A stretch of 64,000 nucleotides of DNA from Chlorops oryzae (lineage: Eukaryota > Arthropoda > Insecta > Diptera > Chloropidae). Below the pieces are notes generated by a model. That model saw nothing but the letters and a program-made list of their open reading frames with translations, had not been told where the DNA came from and ran no database searches. How positions within the stretch are numbered: position 1 is the first letter of the stretch; each line of letters opens with the position of its first letter. Both the position numbers and the translations under genes were made by a program. Positions 1,409-62,499 of this stretch are shown here, piece after piece. The stretch lies in contig CM035807.1 of NCBI GenBank assembly GCA_020466095.1, positions 106,283,227 to 106,347,226 of the forward strand. Reading direction: 5' to 3'.

Positions 1409-3583
1409 ATGCGGCAAGCAATCGTTTTACTGCTCCTTGCTGCAATTGGATCGGTCCTTATAAGTTCAGCGATAAGTGAGGTGAGGTAAGTACCTGATAG
1501 ACATTATGAGATACCTTAAGTCCCATCTTGAATTACATTTCGATAAGCATAGAAGATGGGACAGAATTTGCATTTTAAGAGACTTTTTGAAATTAGTTAG
1601 AAATTAATGTCTTAATCGGCAGCAGATTTTATGTATATCCAGTTGTAGCAATGAAAGAAAATCTCTTTTACACTATATGTAGTTGAATAGGATTCATTGA
1701 ATTATTGAATAAAATTAATACTTTTTAAAATAACCGACGTCTGTGCGACTGTCACGCCACGGCGTGACGTAACGCATTTCAGTTAATTATCGATTGCAAA
1801 AAAGACGTTTTATTCGAAAATATTCAAGGAAGTCATGAAAAATGTGAACATCATAAAGCCAAGCTTATCGTTAAAGTAACAATTCCTCTTTTAATAGATT
1901 TTTCAATAATAATTTTACTTTCCTGAAACAAAAAGATGCTGTTATTAATTAATATTATCATAGTCTTGATCAGATTCGTGAAACAATCCAGTCGCTTGTA
2001 CACGGAAACAAACTTTTGTACGACAGATTAGAACGTCATGAGCTCAGGGAGCGTGCTTTGGGCGAACTGCTTAAAAAGGAATTTCAGGCTCAAAGAAACC
2101 AAAATTCGGTATTAAAAGCAAGTTTCGCGAGATTGGATGAACGGGTCTCTGGAATGGAAACCATGCTATTAACGGTAACTATTTATATTTGATTTAGAGA
2201 TGGGCGGTGGCTCTGGGATAACGTAGGGGATGCGTGCTATGCTCTTGATCCAAGGGTCCGAGGTTCGATTCCCAGCACAGGCGAAACGGAGTGTAATGTT
2301 CCAAGCCTAGGCACTAAATATTACAATCTAATTATTCTTGGCGGCGGCCATTTTGCTCCTTTGCCTGTACTCCGTCTGAGGGCGGTGGTGAAGGGACAAT
2401 TACGCATACATTCGTACATACTCGTATCAGTGCCTGACGTCGGTCATAAAATCGAAGTTTTAACATTCTAAAAGTTTAACCTGGCATATGTGGACCGTAC
2501 TGGGTCCCAGCCATTAATATTATAGTCCAAAAAAAAAAAAAAAAACAAAAACAGAACAGAAAGAACTAAATAAGGAGCTTCTCGAGCAGGTGAAGGAGGT
2601 ATCTTCAAACGTCAAGCAACTTTTTAACAACTCATTAGATGTTATGCACAAAGACCAAGACGATATGATTCGAGTGATGTATCAGTTGCTTCCCAATACT
2701 TCGGACCGACTCAGTGAAGCGGACAAAGCGTTTATACAACAACAGGCTAACGACACAAAAAAAGCTTTGGATTCAGTTAAAGCCGATATTATAAGTGCAT
2801 CTGATAAGGGTTAGTCTAGAGAAGCATGGCATGAGTTTGATTCTATTTATATATCGGCTTTTTATTTCGATTTTAGCTCTTGATAAGACAACTTCCCGCA
2901 TTAAAGAAACCGAAGCATATATTGAGGGAAGCCTGAGCAAGGTAATGGGTAGTGTAAATAATTCATCTGATGCAGTTGAAAGGTAAGTGAATATAAAGAA
3001 AATTTTGGTGGAAGACATTACAAGGCTACGTCTAATCCATAGGTTCTATAACGAAATGAATGTCAGTTACAAGAAACTCAATGATCGGCTTGAAATCTTT
3101 GAAAAATTTATCGACACTGTCATGACGAGCACCGATTATATAATTAATATACAGCATAAAGTGGAATTGAAAACAATGCAAGAAATTAAAAATAGCAGCG
3201 ACCTTCTCAAAACGCGATTCGATGGACTCGAGGACATTTTCAATACAAAATTTGAGAATGTGCAAGGACTTAATTCCCTTATGGTGGAGGAGATTAGTCG
3301 TGTCCACCGACAATTTGGAAGCTTACACGGAGAAATAAGACATTGCAGTGATATGTTAAATTTGATGGAGGGCAGGAATGAGGTCTACGTAAATCGTACC
3401 ATAAGCACAATGGTCGGAGGTACTAAGGATAGCATGCTCATTATGGACTCAAATTTAGATTATTTATTTGAAAAGATTTCAATAATGTCAAGGAAAATTA
3501 AAAATACAGAACTCAGTCTTGACGAATCCTTAAGTGATATATGCGATAAATTCTATGCATTACACTCAGACGATGAACGATAA
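1409..3583 (+). CDS. secreted coiled-coil protein, function unknown (5 exons, 394 aa)
   Basis: Exons read from splice sites and phase: 1409-1485, 1964-2174, 2560-2809, 2877-2982 and 3043-3583. The joins are in phase 2, 0, 1 and 2, and every intron has GT-AG ends. The protein starts MRQAIVLLLLAAIGSVLISS, a clear signal peptide of about 20 residues. The remainder is hydrophilic and helical, with heptad-like segments such as KELNKELLEQVKEV and several NxS/T sites (NNS, NTS, NDT, NVS, NRT). No transmembrane segment, globular domain or cysteine-rich module is seen, so it looks like an extracellular or luminal coiled-coil polypeptide. I do not recognise the family. Intron 2 carries a SINE whose A-tail lies just ahead of the acceptor. 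The start is the first ATG of the signal peptide. A candidate AATAAA lies at 3813. The exon structure is inferred, not confirmed by transcripts. Confidence 0.8.
2195..2545 (+). mobile_element. tRNA-derived SINE with poly(A) tail (in intron 2 of the coiled-coil gene)
   Basis: A tRNA-like head (about 2200-2280) has a perfect RNA polymerase III B box, GGTTCGATTCC, at 2262-2272 and an A-box-like TGGCTCTGGGAT just upstream. A unique body of about 250 bases follows and ends in a run of 17 A (about 2529-2545). This is the layout of a tRNA-derived SINE. The head is not a usable tRNA, because no full cloverleaf follows. No clear target duplication was found. The element lies in sense orientation, 14 bases before the next exon. 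Confidence 0.75.
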
Positions 3584-56115: not shown

Positions 56116-57038
56116 TTTAAAATCAGACCTGTTAAATCCCGATTAAGATTAATAATCATGAATTATTGTTCTTTTTTTAATCTATAATCATTATTAATTT
56201 AACTTCTTGAAATTTTTGATTATTAATGATTGCGATTACCAAATAATCGTGAAATAATCAGGACTAATTCAGATTAATGAAAAAAATCAGAAAAAATCAA
56301 AAAATTATCAAAAAAATAATCCCGATTAATTTTAGATTATTTTTGGGTAGTTTTGATTTTTTTTTGATTATTTTTGATGTTTCCTGATTATTTTTGGGTT
56401 TTTTGATTTTTTTTGATTATTTTTGATTTGTTCTGATTTTTTTTATAAATTTTATTTATTTTAAATTTGTAATTGAATAACATCGTTTTTCCAAAGTATC
56501 CCTATAGTCCGTGGGACCGGCACCGGACAAGTGAATTCACCGGCCACCTGTGGTTAGGACCACCCCTCGTCAAACCACCGGCAATACTTTCGAGAGGCGA
56601 ATTTTACATTGCGATGTCATAGGCAAGGACATATGGGCCCCTCGCTGTACTACATTTAATTATATTCAATTACAAATTGAAAATAATTAAAATTAATAAA
56701 AAAATCAGAACAAATCAAAATTAATCAAAAAAAATCAAAAAACCCAAAAATAATCAGGAAAAATCAAAAATAATCAAAAAAAAAATCAAAACTATTCAAA
56801 AATAATCTTAAATTAATCGGGATTATTTTTTTGATTATTTTTTGATTTTTTCTGATTTTTTTCGTTAATCTGAAATAATCCTGATTATTTCATGATTATT
56901 TGGTAATCGCAATCATTGATTAATATAGGTCATACAAAAATAATCATTAAATAATCACTATTTCACTCATAAGAAAAAAATAATCTGATTAATTAATCAT
57001 TAATTAAATAATCATTATTTAACAGGTCTGTTTAAAAT
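56116..57038. mobile_element. 907-bp foldback element with perfect 8-bp duplication
   Basis: Element 56124-57030. Ends CAGACCTGTTAAAT and ATTTAACAGGTCTG are perfect inverted repeats. Each arm is about 350 bp of TGATTATTTTTGA-type units and their complements, leaving a GC-richer core at about 56480-56660 (CCGTGGGACCGGCACCGG). TTTAAAAT flanks both ends. An 8-bp duplication and CAG ends suggest mobilisation by a hAT transposase. It is noncoding. Confidence 0.88.
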
Positions 57039-57475: not shown

Positions 57476-60440
57476 GATAATAATAATTTCTTTGCCATTT
57501 TTTAGACAACTTACACTTTCCTCGATGACTGTTCTTCATTCGGTTTCATCGCTGTTAAATCTCTTCTTCCAGAATCCTTTTGGCATCGCTTCTTTAACTT
57601 CTTAAACCAATGCAGGTTTAGTTCATGGGTCAGTCCTTTTCTGTTCTCAACATCAAACCAATTTTAAAATTCATTTCTCTTTCCTTAAATAGAAATAAAG
57701 TAAAGTTTGTATTAATTAAGGCGTTAGCAAGGATACACCTAAGCAAAATGAAACGCAATATTATTAATTAACCTCAAACCAATGCCAACAAAAACTTCAG
57801 GAAAAGTTTCTCACAAAAATAAAAAATTTCAAATAAAAAAAGGATCCAATCTCGAAAGATTCGCAACATACTTCAAAAGAAAGTTGAAATTAGGAAAACA
57901 AGGCACAAAGTAAATTCAATTTAAAAGGCAACAGCAGCAGCAGCAGCAGCAGCAATTCCGCTTGTCACGAATCCTTCGGTCCATTGCAAAGAGACCAGAA
58001 ATTCGCTGACATGTGCTATTGATACTGTGTATAATATCCGTGAACAGTGGAAGCGAAATTGGAAAATGTAACGCAATTTTCCACTCATTTCAGTACTTTA
58101 CATTTGAAAGAGGCAGACGGTTTCCACCAATCGAAATTGTAACTTACGTGATTCGACAAGTTTTTCATCGTGTCTTCTATTCATTTGTCTTCTTATTCTT
58201 CAGCCATTTTTTTTTTTTTTTTTGCACAGGATCATAAGGTCTGACATTCGTTCATTGTTCAGCCTTCAGTCTTTTGTTGTTTGCAAATCACGGGAAAATC
58301 ACCGACAACTTCAAAATGTGTGAATTGAATTTTCAAACGAGATTTTGAGATAGAAAAATAGACAAAATAATGGGCGGATAATAAAGACGAATATATACGT
58401 ATTAAAACCATTGATGGAAGAACACGAGCACGACCACGAGCCGACCGACACCGACCGACCGTTGAACAAACAACATCATTCCCATTGTTCATTTATATTT
58501 GTTCGCTCATTTCATTTAGTCATTCAGTAAATGAACGAACGCTTCAATAAATCCACGAAAAAGCCAAAAATTCTTTGAAACTACCAAAAATGGAGCAATG
58601 AAGATGAACGAACACGAATCGTAGAGGCAAAGTTAGAACGTTTGTTTATACGCTATGCCACAGCAGCGAAGTTGTGAAGTTGTTGACGTTGCTCTTGTTG
58701 CTGCCACTTTTCCACCACTTTCCTCGGATGGCTTTCAATTTGTCTTGCTATGATTTGACTCTGCAGGCTTTGATGCTCTCCTAATGCGGATGCGGATGGT
58801 GATGGTGCTGCTACTGCTTCTGCTGCTTGTCGCGCCCAACTGATGTTCGAAATTCGCGTATCGCCCCCTGTAGAAGGTATTTTAAAATTTTCTGCACGTT
58901 TCGGATGTTTATGCCATTAGCGATAAGCTCGGGACGTGGTCGCTTGCTGCCTATTGCATTCTCGATTCACCATCGATTGTCAGAGACATGACAATCGCAA
59001 TAAAAGTCTCAAACGAATAATAATGCTCTCCTCGAATTCTGGTAATTTTGAACGATTTCCATGGTTTGGAACGTAGAGGCTTAGGTTTGACTGCTCTCTT
59101 CTATGGATGCGTCTTGATTCTGAAATCGCTTTAATTATGAAAATGCAAGTGATTTCTGTTAATATTTAATATAAGGCATCCTCTTGCGAGACTTCCTGAC
59201 AAACCGAACCCTCGGCACTCCGAAAAACGTTATTCAGGGCAGTGTCAAACGAATTTGTCGAATTTATAGACTAGTGCCTCAGACCCCCTATAGCCCGGAA
59301 TTTGCTTTTTTACAAAATAGATAGGTAGTACCTTGTAATCCGACAACTACAGATCCAATAACAAGATTCTGTATGCTATATTCTAAACTACAATTTTCAT
59401 TATCGATTTGATTACCCCCGAATAATAGTCATCTCGGATTAGCCGGATTACCGGATTACGATACTATGTATATTCGAAATCGAAATACGATGAAAGTCGA
59501 AGCTATTTTGGGTGGACTTTGTTAGACAAGGAGATGTTTCAATGTCACCAATGGACATCCGAGTTGGGATTTCGGGCTAAGATCTGATGATGTATTGCTG
59601 CAGTCTATGTAGACTGGGTTTTAATAAAAAAAAATGTGAAAATTCTTAAGTATTTGAAGTCATTTTACATTGCAGCAGTATTACTTTTGCAATATTACAC
59701 ATTGCAGAAATGTTGGAGCAACGTTGCAGATGCTGGTACCTTGCTGGTACCTTGCTGCAATATTGCTTTAGTAATATTTAAATAGAATTGAAATATGGAT
59801 GCAATATTGATTAAATATTATTGCAATGCCGACTGGGTAACAACCGATAAGATAATTTTCAAGGCGAAAAAACAATTTATTTTAAAATACGAAGCAACTT
59901 CCAAAGGCATTATCCATGAATTTGGCAGATTAGGTTTGATTCGTTGTTGATTCGTTGACTTTGTTTTCACAGTGTACAAAACATTTGAATATGTAGTAAC
60001 ATGTTATACTTCCAATTCTATAAAACTGAATTTTGTTAAAAATACGTTTTATTTCTCGCTCAGCTGATATTGCAAAAAAGTAATGCTCAGTTATAAATAA
60101 TATTTCCCCCATCTACAGGAATGCGATTATTGCCATTAAATCTATGTAGACCTGTCATTGTAACTAGAACTTTGAATCAAAAGCTAAGGATTTCGTAATT
60201 CACGTTGGGATATTTCGAATCTGGGATTTTCTTTTAGGGCGAGCTGGCAGCACTGCAGTTCATTGAATTGAACGAATTTGTTTTGAACAGCGGAAATTAA
60301 AGAAAATACTCAAACTCAATCTCAGAGCATTTTCGTACAAATTAGTTGCACTTTATTCCAGTATTTAAAATACAATTCCTTAACAGAATGGAGACATCAC
60401 GGAAACCACGAAAATCGCAAAAGGAAGCACGCTTGAACGT
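57476..60440. other. long intergenic stretch, no gene recognised
   Basis: Holds a (CAG)n run of about 7 units at 57931-57953 and GC-richer sequence at 58430-58900 that could belong to a promoter or untranslated exon. Repeated TGCAATATTGC-like words occur near 59680-59830. No reading frame with a domain is present. Confidence 0.5.
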
Positions 60441-60442
60441 GA

Positions 60443-60720
60443 GCTATTGATTTTGCGATTCAGAATTTCTGGATCGCAAAACAAAATCGTATGAAATTGA
60501 TTTTGCGATTCACAATTTCTGGATCGCAAAACAAAATCGTATGAAATTGATTTTGCGATTCACAATTTCTGGATCGCAAAACAAAATCGTATGAAATTGA
60601 TTTTGCGATTCACAATTTCTGGATCGCAAAACAAAATCGTATGAAATTGATTTTGCGATTCACAATTTCTGGTGCAAAACAAAATGTATTGAAATTGATT
60701 TTGCGATTCACAATTTCATC
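60443..60720 (+). repeat. 50-bp minisatellite, about 5.5 units, each a hairpin
   Basis: The units begin near 60443, 60493, 60543, 60593 and 60643. They are nearly identical until the last one and a half units, which have lost several bases. Each contains TTTTGCGAT and, 14 bases on, its complement ATCGCAAAA. There are no unique spacers, so it is not a CRISPR array. Confidence 0.9.
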
Positions 60721-61047: not shown

Positions 61048-61234
61048 TTACTCGCCGGTCACACTTATGAAACATGTTTTGAAAACATCCCATTTGAATG
61101 CATGAGAAAGAAAGAGAAACAAAGGTTGTTTCGGAACATTCAACAAACAACCATCTCTTTTCTTACCATGTCTCACTTTCTCTACTTACAAATTGTTTCA
61201 AAACATTATTTCACACGTATGACCGGCGAGTTAC
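61048..61234. mobile_element. PIF/Harbinger-type MITE with TTA duplication
   Basis: Element 61051-61231 (181 bp). Left CTCGCCGGTCACACTTATG and right CATACGTGTG-type arm ending TGACCGGCGAG are inverted repeats over about 34 bp with a few mismatches (TGTTTTGAAAAC / GTTTCAAAACAT inside). TTA flanks both ends. It is 26 bases from the Transib-like element. Confidence 0.78.
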
Positions 61235-61260: not shown

Positions 61261-62499
61261 CGCCGCACAGTGGTTCGTCTTCATACATATCGCGGCAAAA
61301 AATATAAGGAGATGTCGTAGAGCTATGAAACTTGGCATCAAGTCTTTATTTGACATAATTAAGAAAAATATGAAGTTTCATCAAAAATCGGCCACGCCCA
61401 CCGCCCACCTCCCATACAAACCAAAATTTATTTTTAATATAAAACGTGTTCCTTTCGTTCAAATGTCACGAAATTTTGCATGTTGGTAATATTTGATTGA
61501 AGAAATATATCCTGCAAAATTCATTTAAATCGGCCACGCCCACCACCCACCAATTCGATTTCAATTAGAGTAAGAGGTGTGTTTTAATTACGCAAAATTT
61601 ACTATTTTTTTTTAGAAAATAAATAGAATTGGATTCGACTGTAAATTCAAAGCTGAACCGCATATTTATTCATTAGATAACATGTATTTAACAATGTCAT
61701 CCAGTTCTAAATGTTTTTTATTTGGTTGACGTCTTATATGACTAATGTATGGGTCAGATGACACAAGGAGTCGGTTAAAAACATCAGAATTTGTGGTAGT
61801 TCTGCTGAATTTTCTGGAAAACATCAACCTGTACTTCCTATAATCCTTATTTCTTGCTTCCTCAGCTTCTTCTAATAATTAGTTAATTGTTGCTATTATA
61901 ATTCGGCGTAATGAATAGGAGTTCCTAAAAGTATACTATAAATTTTTTAAAAGATTTTTATTGCAATTGTCACGCATTTTTCTTACAAAATTGATGATAT
62001 CTTAAAAGTGCTAGGCTATGCCGGCCGTTTTTTTTCATTATATGTTAGAACTAACTAAAAGCTTCAATTTTTACCCTATTTGAAAGTAACTGCTCGTAAC
62101 TCACATTAGTTCTATTCCAACAAAAATAGCAAATCCTGTATTTTTTGGAGTCATTTTCATTTCCGCATAACTTTTAAACCACTAATCGTATCTTACTGAT
62201 TCCTTTGGTAATTTCATGAGTAAATGTTATATTTTACTATAGAACAAAATTTTTGGTACAGAAAAGATTTTATTTTATATTAATTCCGTACTCAATTTAA
62301 TGAAAAACTTAGTCAATTATTACCCTTGCATGTTTATGTAACTTCCAACGGGTATACCAAGTACTAATATTACTTTTTGAAACAAAAGCTTATGGATTTC
62401 TCTTATTTGGACAATTCTCTACAAAACTGCATCATTACTTTTTCGAAATCATATGGTAGAAAAATTGATTTTTTGCCGCTGAAAAACCACTGTGCGCCG
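61261..62499. mobile_element. Transib-like non-autonomous transposon with 12/23 RSS-like ends
   Basis: Element 61266-62494 (1,229 bp). The left end is CACAGTG, a 23-base spacer, then CAAAAAATA at 61296-61304. The right end, read inward on the minus strand, is CACAGTG, a 12-base spacer, then CAAAAAATC at 62475-62467. The 5-bp sequence CGCCG lies outside both ends (61261-61265 and 62495-62499). CAC-starting heptamers plus a CG-rich 5-bp duplication are the marks of Transib, the superfamily whose transposase is related to RAG1. The interior has no long reading frame. It carries two CGGCCACGCCCACC words at about 61389 and 61534. Mobilisation would need a Transib transposase from elsewhere. Confidence 0.82.

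Follow-up and report, generated by a model that had tools for sequence, protein, structure and literature searches.

Vertebrate recombination signal sequences (RSSs), the substrates of RAG1/RAG2, combine the heptamer CACAGTG with an A-rich nonamer across spacers of 12 or 23 bp (PMC8289069), and RAG inserts into GC-rich sites of 5 bp; one structure of RAG at strand transfer has CGCCG as its target (PMC11844651). Among the RAG-family transposons, ProtoRAG of amphioxus and AanRAGL have asymmetric ends, 5-bp duplications and RAG2-like genes, with spacers of 27/31 and 4/13, respectively (PMC8289069, PMC9435367). The Transib element HzTransib of Helicoverpa zea (PDB 6pqn), with catalytic residues D126, D225 and E436 (PMC6941560), has symmetric ends and little or no nonamer (PMC8289069). 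Ends of the 12/23 type have been reported for Transib5 of D. melanogaster and for Transib2, N1, N2 and N3 of A. gambiae (PMC8355894, after Kapitonov and Jurka 2005), and PMC9435367 describes asymmetric ends more generally. The initial annotation of the locus studied here described a Transib-like element with 12/23 ends; such an element is not a first, its kind being already in print.

The window, by which we mean the whole 64-kb stretch of DNA analysed, holds an insert of 1229 bp (61266-62494, by direct reading and a scripted count). Its left end reads CACAGTG, a 23-bp spacer and CAAAAAATA; on the minus strand, the right end gives, from the outside in, CACAGTG, a 12-bp spacer and CAAAAAATC. 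These heptamers and spacers, and the flanking CGCCG, had been annotated correctly to the base (Table 1). Two motifs recur at both ends as an inverted pair, CACAGTGGTT adjoining the cut and, in the nonamer region, GCGGCAAAAAAT, and the distance between these motifs is 11 bp greater at the left end than at the right. The insert resembles vertebrate RSSs in its heptamer, A-rich nonamer and 12/23 spacers and resembles RAG targets in its GC-rich 5-bp site, CGCCG. Unlike vertebrate RSSs, these signals are the ends of a mobile element, and the nonamer is CAAAAAATA/C rather than ACAAAAACC. ProtoRAG and AanRAGL share the asymmetry and the 5-bp duplications and differ in their spacer lengths and in having RAG2-like genes. 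Transib5 and the A. gambiae elements, which we know by description rather than by sequence comparison, likewise combine a CAC heptamer with an A-rich nonamer, across a 12-type spacer at one end and a 23-type spacer at the other.

Table 1. Parts of the insert and its flanks, in window coordinates
Feature	Position	Strand	Basis
Target-site duplication CGCCG, left copy (5 bp)	61261..61265	.	direct reading and script
Left 23-type heptamer CACAGTG; 3' end relative to transposase remnant	61266..61272	+	reading, script, copies
23-bp spacer, containing CTTCATACAT	61273..61295	+	script; alignment of 3' ends
Left nonamer CAAAAAATA	61296..61304	+	script
Two repeats spaced 142 bp apart (61385-61409, 61527-61551)	61385..61551	+	
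Last 70 transposase codons and stop (TAA 61666-61668)	61666..61878	-	protein comparison
Internal deletion junction, transposase C-terminus / 5' non-coding part	61876..61878	.	comparison with L053
Right nonamer CAAAAAATC	62467..62475	-	script
12-bp spacer	62476..62487	-	script; 39/40 copies
Right 12-type heptamer CACAGTG; 5' end relative to transposase remnant	62488..62494	-	script, copies
Target-site duplication CGCCG, right copy	62495..62499	.	direct reading and script

Counts of single motifs within the window are poor proof of paired ends. CACAGTG occurs 7 times in the 64 kb against 2.87 expected, and CACAGTGGTT with at most one mismatch occurs twice against 2.05 expected, both matches being exact and identical with the insert's own two ends. 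We considered the five remaining copies of CACAGTG as Transib ends and rejected them, since by eye no CAAAAA-like run lies at a distance of 12 or 23. The copies of the element elsewhere in the genome are more informative. A DNA search of the source genome (442 Mb) with the element scored 40 of 1268 candidates, a set that includes the window copy and was selected by likeness to it. The pairing of the ends goes beyond chance because the 12-type (right) end is present in all 40 scored copies and the 23-type (left) end in 36 of them. The spacer is 12 bp in 39 of the 40 (by eye, it is 16 bp in the exception, L037) and 23 bp in 34 of the 36 (33 parsed, plus L033 by eye, whose nonamer at this end is CGAAAAATA). 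In L031 the 23-spacer carries a deletion, yet the duplication is exact, and in L028 the 23-type end is degenerate. The heptamer is CACAGTG at 38/40 12-type ends and 33/36 23-type ends. Two variants of the ends occur among the copies, and the 38 of the 40 that were measured diverge by 0.9-8.4% from the majority consensus of the right-hand part.

An exact 5-bp duplication, mostly CGNCG, flanks 27 of the 36 two-ended copies; position 1 of these 27 words is C in 24, position 2 is G in 24, position 4 is C in 27 and position 5 is G in 25. The annotation had also predicted an empty site with a single target word. This was borne out for the sister copy L022, whose joined flanks are 94% identical over 270 bp to an uninterrupted repeat in L034, a paralogous empty site with a single CGGCG, and not for the window's own insertion, whose joined flanks had no uninterrupted match in the genome. 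Some copies carry tandem expansions of a 142-bp unit (AAATCGGCCACGCCCACC...) that lies inside the element, at 61385-61551 in the window; in L022 this expansion gives an element of 2479 bp.

We also scanned the genome with the pattern CACAGTGGTT-N(2 to 24)-GCGGCAAAAA. Any spacer from 9 to 31 bp can satisfy it, but it detects the ends of the window element's family only. The scan returned 164 matches, as against none for the reversed control. Among the 100 matches listed of these 164, the spacer was 23 bp in 52, 12 bp in 47 and 22 bp in 1; a second scan gave a spacer of 12 bp in 78 of the 164, with 33 others of the 164 known only as not 12. The same 100 listed matches contained 30 convergent neighbour pairs within 10 kb, every one of which joined a 12-type to a 23-type end, and one further neighbouring pair that was divergent. 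Because the convergent pairs span 1123 to 8578 bp, they need not all be single elements. Moreover, the pairs derive from few ancestors, and the figure of 30/30 therefore reflects faithful inheritance and is no proof that 12/12 or 23/23 pairs fail.

What kind of element is the insert? None of its frames between stops exceeds 73 residues. On the minus strand, however, 61669-61878 codes for the 70 C-terminal residues of a Transib transposase, similar to HzTransib 6pqn at E=8.2e-11 and to 11 public-assembly proteins at 69-79% identity; the best match of all 11 proteins falls between 61669 and 61899 on that strand. When HzTransib is aligned with P0001, one of these proteins, and a numbering offset of 17 is inferred, codon 61858-61860 falls on E436 of HzTransib, the third of the catalytic acids. 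The remnant alone had no Pfam match; of the proteins, P0001 scored above the cut-off of the Pfam RAG1 model and P0009 did not. RSS-like inverted ends beginning with CAC, a GC-rich 5-bp duplication and a RAG1-core-like DDE transposase bear out the annotated membership in Transib, and a heptamer, a nonamer, one 12 spacer and one 23 spacer make up a 12/23 signal pair. The gene lies on the minus strand, which makes the 12-type end the 5' terminus of the element and the 23-type end its 3' terminus.

Comparison with a related locus, L053, accounts for the size of the insert. Element positions 1-180 match the 3' end of L053 (80%), positions 400-613 its C-terminus (84%) and positions 611-1229 its 5' part (77%). 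The insert is therefore a Transib that has lost its middle part, and with high confidence we read it as a non-autonomous DNA transposon of the Transib type. An acceptor-like TTATTAG run had made a splice site directly before the remnant a candidate; the L053 comparison places the deletion junction there instead.

The annotation had called for a search for a Transib transposase whose own ends match, and the genome contains autonomous relatives with the same 12/23 layout. Searching it with P0001 gave 91 matches from 87 scored of 1512 candidates, and we fetched loci up to L070. One family, F1 (L041, L042, L044, L045, L046, L049 and L051), consists of 3.05-kb elements with 12/23 ends and exact duplications (in that order, TGACG, CGGCG, CGTCG, CGCCG, CGGCG, CGCCG and CGGCG). 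They represent six independent insertions, because L046 and L051 are one locus that was copied together with its flanks. Leaving that duplicated pair apart, the independent insertions are 99.5-99.8% identical to one another at different sites, which suggests that F1 moved recently. No stop interrupts the full matched transposase of L041, L042, L044 or L045; a single stop occurs in L046 and in L051, and L049 and L051 match only partially in one frame. Every F1 row has D, D and E, which align with those of the homologous HzTransib transposase, and near the N-terminus there is a GRP motif, a motif that PMC9435367 assigns to the nonamer-binding domain. The 12-type end lies at the 5' side of the gene (spacer GTATTTCGGTGG, 12 bp) and the 23-type end at its 3' side (spacer GTATTGCTTCATACATTTCTTGG, 23 bp), the same polarity as in the window element. 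In L050, a damaged copy of F1, the 12-side spacer measures 11 bp, and L043 has no stop and only its 3' end visible.

Outside F1, the incomplete or damaged loci L053, L054 and L055 also have 12/23 ends with exact duplications, the third catalytic position of L055 being K, and L047 and L052 have 5' spacers of 12 bp, read from that end alone. The family of L053, F4, is the nearest to the window element; no uninterrupted full-length F4 transposase was found among 130 matches, which cover the best candidates only. In L053 itself, numbered in the orientation of the transposase, the 12-type end at about 731-840 is preceded at 8 bp by a 23-type end, and at 3011-3245 two downstream 23-type ends, one of them degenerate, share its CGCCG word; these extra ends point to elements inserted beside or into one another. 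Across the genome, many of the dozens of Transib transposase loci have open frames of 500-700 codons with 36-45% identity to P0001.

When the 3' ends of six asymmetric representatives were aligned, CTTCATACAT was invariant in their 23-spacers. A symmetric relative, L056, has CATACA at the corresponding offset of its 24-bp 5' spacer. This position is possibly a further contact site, or the agreement may be due to chance. We had considered the constancy of spacer length across families as evidence in its own right. The aligned 3' ends are gap-free over 120 columns, and we dropped the argument because the sequence adjacent to the spacer is equally gap-free.

Symmetric relatives are present in the same genome. 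L059 has the heptamer CACACTG, a spacer of 23 bp at both ends and the duplication CGTGT; its sister L061 (98.7% identical) is 7 bp shorter in the 5' spacer and is flanked by the duplication AATCG. L056 has CACTATG, spacers of 24 and 23 bp and the duplication AGCCG. Similar ends without a readable nonamer are found in L058, L063, L064 and L068, only the 3' end is readable in L057, and no ends were recognised in the available letters of L048, L060, L062, L065, L066, L067, L069 and L070. For a tree we took 42 rows (30 loci, 11 proteins and HzTransib), of which 28 were left after the removal of 14 near-duplicates and fragments. All asymmetric rows fall into one clade of 17 (support 100/100), comprising nine loci, which include all six whose 12-type end could be read, together with eight of the proteins from public assemblies (P0001, P0002 and P0004-P0009); P0011 lies outside. 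The sister of this clade is L056 (support 97/93). Parsimony over the eight spacer-scored loci, to which L047 and L052 contribute only their 5' ends, requires one change of end type, a count that is unrooted and by itself gives no direction. The tree is rooted on a single long-branched outgroup. The 12-spacer probably arose once here, through the loss of about a helical turn (approximately 11 bp) from the 5' side of an ancestor close to 23/23. We place a single origin in this direction because both outside lineages with a readable nonamer, which are two only, are symmetric or nearly so (24/23 in L056, 23/23 in L059).

How should the asymmetry be read? One objection is that the element is otherwise symmetric and that the short right spacer reflects either a deletion private to this copy or an A-rich run read by chance as a nonamer. 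The two ends do differ by an 11-bp block, as a single deletion would leave, and L061, 7 bp shorter than L059, shows that private spacer changes occur in the superfamily. The annotation had proposed a genome-wide tabulation of copies as a check, and that tabulation answers the objection, with 12 bp on the right side in 39 of 40 copies. A 12-bp 5' spacer of differing sequence recurs, moreover, in F1, in the L047/L054 pair, in L055, in L053 and in L052, which leaves a private change exceedingly improbable. An asymmetry inherited from the base of Transib, with the symmetric families in this genome having lost it, would agree with PMC9435367, which argues that asymmetry of the ends is the ancestral condition and is shared by every Subgroup I Transib. 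The distribution described above speaks against it: the asymmetric families form one clade with a 24/23 sister and 23/23 further out, and a single change suffices if symmetry is ancestral, on a weak root. We regard an ancestral asymmetry as unlikely.

A different question is whether the asymmetry, although inherited, has any function. The transposase might need the heptamer and adjacent bases only, in which case spacer length would be carried along without any pairing rule. The symmetric ends of HzTransib, with little or no nonamer (PMC8289069), would fit such passive inheritance, as would the exact duplications of L061, despite its short spacer, and of L031, despite a damaged 23-spacer (the damage may precede or follow insertion). 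So would the few ancestors behind the neighbouring pairs and a spacer length no more constant than the adjacent sequence. However, families with transposases 60-82% identical to P0001 all retain a nonamer-like box at each end, and the spacers differ by about one helical turn. On balance, we consider passive inheritance a real possibility, somewhat short of an even chance.

A mechanism of transposition can be proposed along the lines of HzTransib and RAG. A Transib transposase acting in trans, originally F4-like and perhaps now that of F1, would bind heptamer and nonamer at both ends. It would nick and hairpin the flanks at the heptamer, as HzTransib and RAG do (PMC6941560), and the cut ends would be inserted 5 bp apart in GC-rich DNA. 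The synaptic complex would be asymmetric, with spacers that differ by 11 bp, or about one helical turn, so that both boxes would face the same way. A stronger version holds that the F1 transposase, acting without RAG2, enforces a 12/23 rule under which it synapses a 12-end with a 23-end and cuts 12/12 and 23/23 pairs poorly, and that this rule came about when one spacer of a symmetric 23/23 ancestor lost one helical turn, independently of RAG2. From sequence comparison we offer this version as a tentative and rather doubtful proposal. According to PMC8355894, RAG1 alone has no preference for 12/23 over 12/12.

The annotation had suggested that a single insert would bear on how the asymmetry arose. 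The insert by itself does not; its relatives do. A genome with intact 12/23 Transibs beside 23/23 and 24/23 relatives offers natural matched substrates and enzymes, which may bear on whether the 12/23 rule predates RAG2, and the loss of about 11 bp from a 5' spacer is a concrete route to asymmetry. A literature search, conducted largely at the level of titles and the starts of abstracts, found no published description of the window element's Transib family. What the present analysis seems to add is the occurrence of several 12/23 families in one genome, their recent intact copies, the polarity of their spacers and their symmetric sister families.

Searches beyond the source genome added little. 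The window element's end pattern had no confirmed match in viral contigs, nor did the transposase alignment in viral contigs or genome contigs; phage and plasmid searches yielded nothing useful, and a first Rfam search had no match. Several other repeats lie in the same window. Directly left of the element, at 61050-61231, is an imperfect hairpin of 182 nt with arms 76% complementary, which looks like a different MITE. Two Rfam microRNA models fall on this hairpin, both far below their gathering scores, and sequences matching its right part occur at 38 or more further places in the genome. Further to the left are a 50-bp tandem array at 60396-60695 and, at 56222-56920, an A+T-rich inverted repeat with arms of 193 nt that are 84% complementary.
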